The notes under the pieces: generated by a model
What the model was told of the DNA's origin: nothing
Databases searched by the model: none
What the model saw: the letters and a program-made list of their open reading frames with translations, nothing else
Made by a program: the position numbers and the translations under genes
Shown: positions 41,081-63,562 of the stretch, piece after piece
Layout: the number at the start of each line of letters is the position of its first letter
How positions within the stretch are numbered: position 1 is the stretch's first letter
Assembly (NCBI RefSeq): GCF_001618685.1
Contig: NZ_CP014342.1
Location: forward strand, 2,604,001 to 2,668,000
Length of the DNA stretch: 64,000 bases
From: Geobacillus subterraneus
GTDB lineage: Bacteria > Bacillota > Bacilli > Bacillales > Anoxybacillaceae
Direction: 5' to 3'

Positions 41081-42193
41081 ATGGCAGAACTCGTTCTCGA
41101 TCATATTTACAAAATTTACGACAACAATGTCACCGCCGTCAAAGATTTCAACTTACATATTCAAGATAAGGAGTTTATCGTCTTTGTCGGTCCGTCCGGC
41201 TGCGGCAAATCGACGACATTGCGGATGGTCGCCGGTCTTGAGGAAATTTCAAAAGGCGATCTCTATATCGACGGCAAGCGGATGAACGATGTGCCGCCGA
41301 AAGACCGCGATATTGCCATGGTGTTCCAAAACTATGCCCTTTACCCGCATATGAGCGTTTATGACAACATGGCATTCGGCTTAAAGCTTCGCAAGTTCCC
41401 AAAAGCGGAAATCGAGAAACGCGTCCGCGAGGCGGCCCGCATCCTCGGGCTCGAACAATACTTAGACCGGAAACCGAAGGCGCTCTCCGGCGGACAGCGG
41501 CAGCGCGTGGCATTAGGGCGCGCCATCGTCCGCGATGCGAAAGTATTTTTAATGGATGAACCGCTTTCAAACTTGGATGCGAAACTGCGCGTGCAAATGC
41601 GTTCGGAGATTGCCAAGCTCCACCAGCGTCTGGAAACAACGACGATTTACGTCACCCACGACCAAACGGAAGCGATGACGATGGCGACTCGCCTTGTCGT
41701 CATGAAAGACGGCGTCATCCAGCAAGTCGGGACGCCGCGCGAAGTGTACGAAAGACCGGAAAACATTTTCGTCGGCGGCTTTATCGGTTCTCCGGCCATG
41801 AACTTTATTAAAGGGACGCTGCAAGACGGCAAATTTGTTGTCGACCGCACATCGTTCGGCATTCCGGAAGGAAAAATGAAAGTATTGCGCGACCAAGGGT
41901 ATATCGGCAAGGAAGTCATTTTAGGCATCCGTCCGGAGGACATTCACGACGAGCCGCTCTTCTTGGAGGCATCGCCGGCGACAAAAATTACAGCGCACGT
42001 TGAAGTCGCCGAGCTGCTTGGCGCCGAATCGATGATTTACTCGAACATCGACGGCCAGGAGTTCGTCGCCCGCATTGACGCCCGCACCGAGATCAAACCG
42101 GGCCACCGCATTGACCTCGCTTTGGATATGAACAAAGCGCACTTCTTTGACATTGAAACGGAGCGGCGCATTCGAGCGGCGGACGAAAAGTAA
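41081..42193 (+). CDS. msmX: MsmX/UgpC-type ABC sugar importer ATPase
   Basis: 370 residues, carbohydrate-uptake-1 family ATPase. Walker A GPSGCGKST (37-45), signature LSGGQRQRVALGRAIVRD, Walker B VFLMDEPLSNLDAKLR, switch YVTHDQTEAM, and a C-terminal regulatory TOBE-like domain from about residue 240. In Bacillus, MsmX energises several different sugar importers in trans. The gene here stands alone, without permeases or binding protein, consistent with that shared role. ATG follows a GGGGG site. Confidence 0.9.
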   Translation: MAELVLDHIYKIYDNNVTAVKDFNLHIQDKEFIVFVGPSGCGKSTTLRMVAGLEEISKGDLYIDGKRMNDVPPKDRDIAMVFQNYALYPHMSVYDNMAFGLKLRKFPKAEIEKRVREAARILGLEQYLDRKPKALSGGQRQRVALGRAIVRDAKVFLMDEPLSNLDAKLRVQMRSEIAKLHQRLETTTIYVTHDQTEAMTMATRLVVMKDGVIQQVGTPREVYERPENIFVGGFIGSPAMNFIKGTLQDGKFVVDRTSFGIPEGKMKVLRDQGYIGKEVILGIRPEDIHDEPLFLEASPATKITAHVEVAELLGAESMIYSNIDGQEFVARIDARTEIKPGHRIDLALDMNKAHFFDIETERRIRAADEK

Positions 42194-42220: not shown

Positions 42221-42251
42221 AATAGGCTCTAGCGTTGTGCTAGAGCCTATT
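42221..42251. terminator. Bidirectional terminator after msmX
   Basis: AATAGGCTCTAGC / GCTAGAGCCTATT, perfect 13-bp stem, 5-nt loop, then CTTTAAT; shared with the convergent zinc-ribbon gene. Confidence 0.88.
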
Positions 42252-42489
42252 CTTTAATAAAGCGCACTTCCTCTTCACGGCAGTGCGGGCAATAAAACAA
42301 GTGAACGCACTCATGGTTCGTATAGGTGCGCGGGTAACCGTCGACAAACTTCATGATGTCTGCATCCATATACGGACTGTAATCATCGAAATAGTCAGTA
42401 ATTTTCCCTTGGTCTTCCATCGGCTGCCGGCAGTAGCTGCAGTATACCGTCATCCGGCGCAGCCCGTTGCAAAGCGGGCACACATTCAT
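42247..42489 (-). CDS. Small cysteine-rich zinc-ribbon-like protein
   Basis: 80 residues with three CxxC pairs: CPLC near residue 4, CSYC near 17 and CPHC near 68. The middle is acidic/aromatic (ITDYFDDYSPYMDADIMKF). The layout suggests one or two zinc ribbons. ATG follows GGAGGAAGC. Conserved-hypothetical in appearance; no function assigned. Confidence 0.75.
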   Translation of the reverse strand: MNVCPLCNGLRRMTVYCSYCRQPMEDQGKITDYFDDYSPYMDADIMKFVDGYPRTYTNHECVHLFYCPHCREEEVRFIKE

Positions 42490-42577
42490 GCTGCTTCCTC
42501 CTCTAAGATGCTCCTTATTTTACATATTCCCTAATGATGACGGCGATAAAACGTTAAAAATTACCACATCCCCACGA

Positions 42578-42607
42578 TGAATAACGGGCTAAAAACGACC
42601 CAAACTA
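42578..42607 (+). promoter_or_regulatory. Sigma-G promoter of the SASP gene
   Basis: TGAATA (42578-42583), 17-base spacer, CAAACTA (42601-42607). The forespore sigma-G consensus is about TGAATA-N17/18-CATACTA, so only one base deviates. It predicts a start near 42613-42614, giving a leader of about 164 nt before the SASP ATG. Confidence 0.8.
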
Positions 42608-42612
42608 TGAGT

Positions 42613-42776
42613 ACCGCCAGCCAAATAGGCCACCCGCCATAACGACTATGCTGGCGAAGGCAAAAGCGGGTGGGCGTTGGGTTCAGCCAAGCTTGGCAGC
42701 GCGCCTTACGGCGTGCGGCGCTGGTGCAAATCCAGCCAACCCAGCCATCAAAATTTACAAGAGGAGATGATCAACT
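42613..42776 (+). ncRNA. Structured 5' leader of the SASP mRNA
   Basis: Two long helices cross each other: CGCCAGC (42615-42621) with GCTGGCG (42650-42656), and CCACCCGC (42630-42637) with GCGGGTGG (42666-42673). Together they form a potential pseudoknot with an internal CATA/TATG hairpin. A tRNA-like fold (42678-42747) follows, then the GAGGAG ribosome-binding site (42761-42766). It matches no riboswitch consensus I know. Confidence 0.65.
42678..42747 (+). ncRNA. tRNA-like element (decayed tRNA-Gln-like) ending in CCA
   Basis: Acceptor TGGGTT pairs with AACCCA. D-arm-like GCCA-AGCT-TGGC. A long middle hairpin GCGCGCC-TTAC-GGCGTGC. T-arm GCTGG-TGCAAAT-CCAGC with exact 5-bp stem and 7-nt loop, followed directly by 7 acceptor bases, G and CCA. 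The D-loop is shortened (no GG) and the anticodon arm is not canonical, so it should not decode. Similarity to bacterial tRNA-Gln is from memory. Confidence 0.6.
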
Positions 42777-42989
42777 ATGGCACGCAACAATAACAATAAC
42801 CAACTGTTAGTCGCTGGTGCCCAACAAGCCATCGACCAAATGAAATTCGAGATCGCTCAAGAGTTTGGTGTCAACCTTGGCGCTGATACGACTTCCCGCG
42901 CGAACGGTTCGGTCGGCGGTGAAATTACGAAACGCCTTGTAGCGATGGCCCAACAACAACTCGGCGGCCAATTCGGCAACGTTCAATAA
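42777..42989 (+). CDS. Alpha/beta-type small acid-soluble spore protein
   Basis: 70 residues, with the SASP family motifs [19 protein letters not shown] (the GPR protease cleavage region) and [20 protein letters not shown]. These proteins saturate forespore DNA, protect it from UV and heat, and are degraded on germination for amino acids. N-terminus [11 protein letters not shown] is typical of thermophilic Bacillaceae. Ribosome-binding site GAGGAG; own sigma-G-like promoter and terminator. Confidence 0.95.
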
Positions 42990-43022
42990 CCTTTTCAGAG
43001 ACAATTCCATATAGATGGCAAA

Positions 43023-43047
43023 AGCCCCAGGCGGTCAGCCTGGGGCT
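43023..43047 (+). terminator. Terminator of the SASP gene
   Basis: AGCCCCAGGC / GCCTGGGGCT with a 5-nt loop followed by CTTTC. Confidence 0.88.
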
Positions 43048-43061
43048 CTTTCATCTCATCG

Positions 43062-52159: not shown

Positions 52160-52211
52160 GAGCCTACAATGTCGCAAGGCAAAGCCATCGTCGCCTATGC
52201 ATAGCTCCTCT

Positions 52212-52302
52212 CCACTTCCCTACGCTGGTATTACCCAGATCAGGTGCTAAGGGTCTCAAAGGCACACTTTGATCTCAGCCTTTCTAAAGGCCCCCCTAGT
52301 GG
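52212..52302 (-). promoter_or_regulatory. TPP riboswitch (THI element)
   Basis: On the minus strand: CCACTAGGGGGGCC, GGCTGAGATCAAA, GAGACCCTTAGCACCTGATC, TGGGTAATACCAGCGTAGGG and AAGTGG. These are the conserved blocks of the thiamin pyrophosphate aptamer in the right order. It controls the nine-gene operon tenA to thiF, repressing when TPP is abundant. Confidence 0.97.
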
Positions 52303-52454
52303 ATGTTCCGTCATGATGCCATTGTTCTGTTTACATTTATCATATCACGGCAACGGCGGTTGTCAACCTTTTTTTCCGTCCTGCGTTGCGTCGCCCACCG
52401 CGATTCGCTATGATTAAAACGCAACGACTCACTATCGAATGGGAGTGGAACTAC

Positions 52455-63324: not shown

Positions 63325-63371
63325 AAAGCCGTGAGAAATATCAAAATGATACTCCTCCCGGGCTTTTGTCC
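63325..63371 (-). terminator. Regulatory terminator of the guanidine riboswitch
   Basis: On the minus strand AAAGCC-CGGGAG..TATCA pairs with TGATATTTCTC..GGCTTT and runs into TTTTTATTTTTTG. It reuses the aptamer's 3' segment (AAAGCCCGGGAG), so ligand binding and terminator are mutually exclusive. Confidence 0.82.
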
Positions 63372-63449
63372 CTCCGTGTACGCGAGAATGCCGCGCGTTT
63401 TCTCTCGGTCGCAGGCCAGCCGCAAAGCAGCCGCGGAACCCTAGAAAAC
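63350..63449 (-). promoter_or_regulatory. Guanidine-I (ykkC) riboswitch
   Basis: Conserved blocks on the minus strand: TTCTAGGGTTCCG, GGCTGGCCTGCGACCGAGAG, AAAACGC, then TACACGGAGGGACAAAAGCC and CGGGAG. They match the guanidine-I consensus in order. It controls gdx. Confidence 0.95.
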
Positions 63450-63562
63450 CTTTTTCTTCCTTTATCCGCTGTTATTGTATCATGTTCGTTGCCAACCGGC
63501 AACTGATTTGACTTGCCGCATTATCATCATAGAAGAAAGCAGACGGGACATGCCCACCTGCC

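Follow-up and report, generated by a model that had tools for sequence, protein, structure and literature searches.

The window, by which we mean the whole stretch of 64,000 nt analysed here, lies at 2604001-2668000 in a genome consisting of a single 3.47-Mb contig and carries an alpha/beta-type SASP gene (Table 1), whose ORF of 70 amino acid residues (10 Gln and 8 Asn, ATG at 42777) matched Pfam PF00269 with 77.6 bits (cut-off 22) and had its closest named relatives in Geobacillus in a protein comparison. The two promoter boxes and the long leader that separates them from the start codon are present as described in the first-pass annotation, and judged by the consensus the promoter is probably of the sigma-G type. 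Ordinary SASP leaders had been said to be short, and this was borne out for the sole other gene of the genome that was checked, the SASP gene at 474349, where a -10-like motif, CATTCTA, starts 30 nt ahead of the ATG. Three SASP genes of the genome score above the Pfam cut-off, and the cloverleaf element described below occurs once.

Around this gene we noticed a UgpC/MsmX-like ABC ATPase gene on its upstream side (41081-42193, + strand), an 80-residue ORF with several CxxC pairs and no NCBIfam match between the ATPase gene and the SASP promoter (42247-42489, - strand) and, 3' of the SASP stop codon, a GC-rich inverted repeat, AGCCCCAGGC/GCCTGGGGCT, with a short T-run (43020-43051, + strand) that looks terminator-like by eye. 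By the same kind of visual comparison, a UgpC/MsmX-like gene also precedes the element-bearing SASP gene in L017, L046 and L043, and the recurrence of this neighbour across several genera suggests one orthologous locus. Elsewhere in the window there are a TPP riboswitch (52200-52307, - strand, 90.1 bits, gathering score 54.3) and a Guanidine-I riboswitch (63353-63455, - strand, 86.2 bits, gathering score 63).

Table 1. Coordinates of the features of the SASP locus, given as positions in the window.
Feature	Position	Strand	Basis
Sigma-G-type promoter (assumed assignment): TGAATA 42578-42583, 17 nt, CAAACTA 42601-42607	42578-42607	+	Sequence
H-type pseudoknot candidate, genus-specific: helices A and B	42615-42673	+	Shuffles, 14 genus leaders
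Predicted tRNA-Gln-like cloverleaf with embedded GCCA	42676-42747	+	Matched by models R1 and R2
Acceptor-like stem: TGGGTT 42678-42683 / AACCCA 42738-42743	42678-42743	+	Alignment, covariation
D-arm-like hairpin: GCC 42686-42688, loop AAGCTT, GGC 42695-42697	42686-42697	+	Alignment, covariation
Anticodon-arm-like hairpin: 42699-42705 / 42710-42716	42699-42716	+	Alignment, covariation
T-arm-like hairpin: GCTGG 42720-42724, loop TGCAAAT 42725-42731, CCAGC 42732-42736	42720-42736	+	Alignment, covariation
GCCA, equivalent of discriminator and CCA	42744-42747	+	Alignment
Shine-Dalgarno GAGGAG	42761-42766	+	Sequence
Alpha/beta-type SASP gene	42777-42989	+	Pfam PF00269, sequence

Comparison with related leaders indicates that the conserved core of this leader is a tRNA-Gln-like cloverleaf, which the first-pass annotation had overlooked. 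The covariance model R1, built from 25 copies with the window copy among them, scores the latter at 83.8 bits. Folding of the complete leader by MFE (-65.5 kcal/mol, z -1.96, equalled by 6 of 200 shuffles) likewise gives, from about 42675 on, an acceptor-like stem with three hairpins and the RCCA. Acceptor and T-stem are retained in the MFE of 85 of 94 copies; these MFE counts, like those of isoacceptors and spacing below, refer to the 95 distinct CCA-ending rows among 108, a start codon being found in 94. The junction between acceptor and D-arm (columns 9-11) has mostly two bases, such as AA, CA or AC. The third, anticodon-like arm varies in sequence and loop length and shows no conserved anticodon, its unpaired stretch ranging from 0 to 50 nt by alignment columns (TTAC in the window copy); in L115:144-247 and L249:451-563, with match lengths of 104 and 113 nt, this arm is much enlarged.

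When 61 related genomes were searched at the DNA level, 39 had a match; for the 23 members of the family that lie outside the genus, the top match starts at query position 116-120 (around 42675). R1 matched 24 of 80 named SASP loci at E ≤ 0.01 (loci picked by protein similarity, paralogues included), and one search of relatives with this model took in 100 loci picked by hand. About 115 of the 397 genomes of the order have an R1 match of at least 48.8 bits (hand count); the tally of 365 of 397 is not a count of the element, as the weaker 77-nt matches are probably tRNA-Gln genes, which is what they were in the genome itself and in three others where this was checked. CCA-ending copies come from at least 21 labelled families of the order (96 of the 108 rows used). 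With R1 and a threshold of E ≤ 1.5e-8, which weaker copies would escape, all genomes with a match were of the same order, 19 of 398 in the class sample and 5 of 398 in the phylum sample; model R2 gave poorer E-values (15/398 at E ≤ 1e-9).

The genomic context is uniform: an SASP ORF lies no more than 260 nt downstream in all 90 loci from the genome-wide model search (30 + 60) and follows 107 of the 108 rows of alignment A2, the exception being a weak second match in L270 (L270:86-149) that is likely false. Of 94 copies, 87 have 16-38 nt between CCA and start codon, and the other 7 have 90-153 nt. Tandem cloverleaves precede one SASP gene at L053:1313-1475 and L106:1308-1475, and also in L063, L069, L096, L231, L228, L059 and L089. 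In B. siamensis, four SASP genes exceed the cut-off and an R1 match lies beside one only, at C40:183053, in the neighbourhood of an ATP-grasp protein, an NAD-binding protein and an ABC transporter; we provisionally take this gene to be sspB-like, since its neighbours resemble the yheD-sspB-yheG-yheH order. A phage remnant was rejected as an explanation, because the B. siamensis copy, the one copy searched, had no match in a phage collection. The presence of the element before SASP genes only (90/90) would suit autoregulation, in which an SASP or another forespore protein would bind the cloverleaf and limit its own synthesis. SASPs are known as DNA-binding proteins, however, and the paralogues of the genome lack the element, and we consider such a loop very improbable.

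The cloverleaf is well supported by covariation. Across the 20 pairs of A2, 96.3% of cells are paired (79.7% when shuffled, at most 53.5% when slid), both-sided change occurs in 17 pairs (12.4 +/- 0.8 when shuffled) and in 369 cells (91 when shuffled), and the covariation score is 0.443 (0.152 when shuffled, at most 0.078 when slid). None of 500 shuffles reached the paired-cell, both-sided-change or score values. The counts lean towards the structure of R1, to which A2 was fitted, and shuffling leaves relatedness in place; the margin is large. Both-sided change is frequent in the inner three acceptor pairs, one D-stem pair, the third arm and three T-stem pairs, while the outer acceptor pairs are nearly invariant (U1-A72 in 100, G2-C71 in 106 and G3-C70 in 105 of 107 rows). 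Judged from these alignments, the leader almost certainly contains a real, conserved and structured element.

In nearly all rows the T-loop has the pattern T-[G/T]-C-R-A-N-Y, and apart from position 55, which is G in 88 and T in 20 of the 108 copies, its positions agree in nearly all of them with the T54-T55-C56-R57-A58 of tRNA. A GG in the D-loop accompanies T55 in 16 of 20 copies, four T55 copies being without it, and G55 in 2 of 88 (Fisher 1.3e-13, relatedness uncorrected). This T55/GG state is found in families f44, f4 and f23 among the CCA-ending copies, and in downstream tandem copies; the downstream member of a tandem pair mostly combines T55 with a GG-type D-loop and lacks CCA. The association is what an 18-55/19-56 elbow contact would lead one to expect, and it is suggestive of such a contact.

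Several comparisons point to one particular tRNA. When the whole genome was scanned with R1, the four matches that followed the element were the four tRNA-Gln genes (46.4, 44, 42.1 and 39.5 bits), the next match scoring 22.1 bits in a genome with 88 tRNA genes above the RF00005 cut-off. In a simple alignment the window copy scored 64 against tRNA-Gln and at best 45 against any other of 59 distinct tRNA sequences, and Gln was the best isoacceptor for 82 of the 95 distinct copies (8 of 95 when shuffled), with Leu, Trp, His, Met, Pro or Ser best for the other 13. The T-loop pattern, the D-arm, the acceptor pairs U1-A72, G2-C71 and G3-C70 and the RCCA are shared with tRNA-Gln; on the other hand, the element has a six-pair acceptor, a short D-loop mostly without GG, mostly G55 and a variable third arm without an anticodon loop, and it sits inside an mRNA. 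We describe the element as very probably tRNA-Gln-like, and the cloverleaf is most likely either derived from tRNA-Gln or a mimic of it, descent and mimicry being indistinguishable here. A functional tRNA gene was rejected: the third arm does not have the 7-nt loop with anticodon of a tRNA anticodon arm, the whole-genome scan with RF00005 left the element unmatched at E ≤ 10, and ARAGORN reported no tRNA in the window or in L001, L017, L053, L089, L095, L096 and L081.

The likeness to tRNA-Gln invites a reading as a Gln-tRNA sensor, in which a free tRNA-Gln-binding enzyme, most likely GatCAB, would bind the mimic and the supply of Gln-tRNA would set the synthesis of the Gln-rich SASP. The model of the mimic is indeed tRNA-Gln, the genome has gatB and no GlnRS above the cut-off, 10 of the 70 residues of the SASP are Gln, and the three outer acceptor pairs stay nearly invariant while the inner ones covary, the conserved U1-A72 matching the reliance of amidotransferases on this pair (PMC9976931). 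Charging of the mimic by GluRS is unlikely, because the anticodon is not conserved. Against the sensor, a Gln-rich SASP paralogue lacks the element, the acceptor conservation may stem from descent, and the discriminator is A in 67 copies and G in 28, whereas the bacterial tRNA-Gln identity set includes G73 (PMC9976931). On balance we find this reading distinctly doubtful.

The RCCA end is present in 95 of the 108 aligned copies, and L033 additionally has CCA. Eight of the 12 rows without CCA are downstream tandem members, one is the likely false match in L270, and the others are the upstream copy of L089, which ends in GCCT, and the single copies L254 and L054. Over all rows, CCA is strongly favoured and not essential. 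RNase P recognises its substrates by the acceptor and T-arm together with RCCA. The element has this acceptor/T-arm stack with RCCA, where its conservation is highest, the anticodon-like arm being free to vary, and it lies near the transcript start: a -10-like motif occurs no more than 140 nt upstream of the cloverleaf in 88 of 96 copies (28 of 96 when shuffled), and the end of this box is usually 18-48 nt before U1. Processing by RNase P could thus be the main point, yielding either an mRNA whose tRNA-like 5' end resists exonuclease or a small tRNA-like RNA that is set free. This appears unlikely as the sole explanation, however, given that 100 of 107 rows retain U1-A72, beyond what RNase P should need, and that the argument from RNase P or RNase Z is weakened by the missing RCCA of L254 and L054 and by the GCCT of the L089 upstream copy.

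As one alternative, the first-pass annotation had proposed a sensor outside the riboswitch classes it knew. No Rfam 15 family (4227 families) matched at the element in the window, at E ≤ 10 over 42500-43060. The yjdF riboswitch family, presumably RF01764, gave no match at E ≤ 10 in that interval and none in 11 relatives at E ≤ 1. In these relatives there were four Rfam matches below the gathering score, and a Twister-sister match of 23.4 bits (gathering score 34) at L063:1301-1383 (+ strand), which overlaps a cloverleaf copy, was taken as chance. A known riboswitch was accordingly rejected.

The closest system is nevertheless the yjdF riboswitch, a tRNA-Lys-like leader with a D-loop/T-loop contact (PMC9142559). 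Both are cloverleaves akin to one tRNA that precede the Shine-Dalgarno in the leader of an mRNA, and such a contact is suggested for the SASP leader as well, whereas the latter resembles tRNA-Gln instead of tRNA-Lys, has RCCA in most copies, precedes SASP genes and has a short acceptor/D-arm junction in place of the extended purine-rich J1/2 of yjdF (PMC9142559). With this precedent, a ligand-binding riboswitch on a tRNA-like scaffold can be considered, its off state sequestering the Shine-Dalgarno, which in yjdF is paired by the T-arm. In the SASP leaders at least three Shine-Dalgarno bases are paired, with whatever partner, in 33 of the 94 predicted MFE structures; tandem copies would also fit. 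The mostly two-base junction and the association with a single gene type that has no metabolic link, together with the lack of any Rfam match in the window to yjdF or other classes, argue against it and make it improbable. The thrS-type operators of E. coli synthetase mRNAs likewise carry a tRNA mimic in the 5' untranslated region and bind their own synthetase via an anticodon-loop mimic (PMC9976931); the SASP leader has no conserved anticodon-like arm and does not precede a synthetase gene.

The crossing helices on which the first-pass annotation had centred lie 5' of the cloverleaf, and their positions and lengths were exact: helix A (CGCCAGC 42615-42621 / GCTGGCG 42650-42656, 7 bp) and helix B (CCACCCGC 42630-42637 / GCGGGTGG 42666-42673, 8 bp) are perfect and cross each other. 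The crossing is beyond chance: of 20,000 dinucleotide-shuffled versions of these 64 nt, one had perfect crossing helices of at least 7 and 8 bp, and among 7,992 segments of 64 nt taken from the 64-kb sequence two had them. The expectation that homologous leaders would keep both helices, with compensatory changes, held in part. Among 14 genus leaders the complementarity seems to be kept in most members (97.1% of cells paired; 96.2% shuffled, at most 49.8% slid), with weak support from covariation (score 0.174 against 0.151 shuffled, reached by 21 of 500 shuffles): one pair of helix B shows a compensated change, in two sequences (L005 and L006), helix A is nearly invariant and, by eye, the pairing of helix B is lost in part in L006 and L014. 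The sister genera within the family, by contrast, lack both helices and have a shorter leader, in which the cloverleaf comes immediately after the promoter and a GTACC-like start.

Since these genera keep the cloverleaf without the pseudoknot, the latter cannot be the general element, and the Geobacillus-type pseudoknot would be a later addition 5' of the cloverleaf. That it is the functional RNA device, with the rest accessory, is barely credible to us: its helices exceed chance and persist in most of the 14 genus members, but the sister genera and the disrupted helix B of L006 and L014 speak against it. The proposal of an RNA element that controls stability or translation fared better, as a leader element is strongly supported and such control is the best inference, although the pseudoknot is not its core; nothing was found in favour of the temperature or small-molecule sensor proposed with it.

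We tentatively favour a ligand-free cis booster or stabiliser of SASP output, ahead of RNase P processing alone, the Gln-pathway sensor, the ligand riboswitch, autoregulation and the pseudoknot device, in this order. On this reading the cloverleaf would work on its own mRNA, need no small-molecule ligand and increase the output of a protein that is abundant in the forespore. Its tRNA-like fold would hold the ribosome-binding site open and favour initiation, as tRNAs grafted in vitro do: authentic tRNAs placed upstream of a Shine-Dalgarno increased translation 2- to 6.3-fold, removal of the acceptor stem with ACCA from the grafted tRNA cost 25%, and an elbow mutation in the yjdF leader brought translation near background (PMC9142559). 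RNase P would probably trim the transcript just before U1, leaving a 5' end closed in the acceptor stem that would be a poor entry for a 5' exonuclease.

Control is likely to be exerted on translation or stability, since the sequence that separates the element from the gene shows no apparent intrinsic terminator. A transcription attenuator was rejected, U-runs between cloverleaf and gene being of at most 3 on reading the sequence, and so was pairing of CCAT with the ATGG start, CCAT being unconserved by eye. The fixed place before a highly expressed gene fits a booster, sspB being among the most highly expressed genes of B. subtilis DB104 at mid-sporulation (PMC10745405). Counting against it, the pairing of Shine-Dalgarno bases predicted in 33 of the 94 MFEs makes switching by sequestration possible, the tandem copies of several genomes recall ligand-binding switches, and the element precedes only one of the three SASP genes above the Pfam cut-off in the genome. 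A booster role also leaves the RCCA unexplained, because replacing ACCA by UAAU in a grafted tRNA cost little translation in vitro (PMC9142559). The kept RCCA and first acceptor pairs appear to ask for more, be it RNase P recognition or a tRNA-Gln-specific binder.

We found no description of a tRNA-like SASP leader in the open-access literature, including by term search in PMC6429828, PMC2864571 and PMC8632094 (older subscription papers on ssp genes lie outside this scope), and no report there of a regulator built from a captured tRNA gene for spore genes. The leader thus appears to hold a conserved RNA element not described before, which accompanies a sporulation gene with strong expression and is spread over at least 21 families of a single order; as a natural tRNA-like leader it would belong to a kind known from yjdF, undescribed before SASP genes. 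It would be a natural counterpart of the translation boost given in vitro by leader-grafted tRNAs, and a case of a tRNA turned cis element. The Gln-pathway sensor, if true, would go beyond this kind: an enzyme acting on Glu-tRNA-Gln, such as GatCAB, would bind the mimic in the forespore and so couple SASP synthesis to the Gln-tRNA pathway via a captured tRNA gene. The element reaches into the B. subtilis group (B. siamensis), where it is open to direct testing, and it would be relevant to the control of SASP output and mRNA stability in the forespore.
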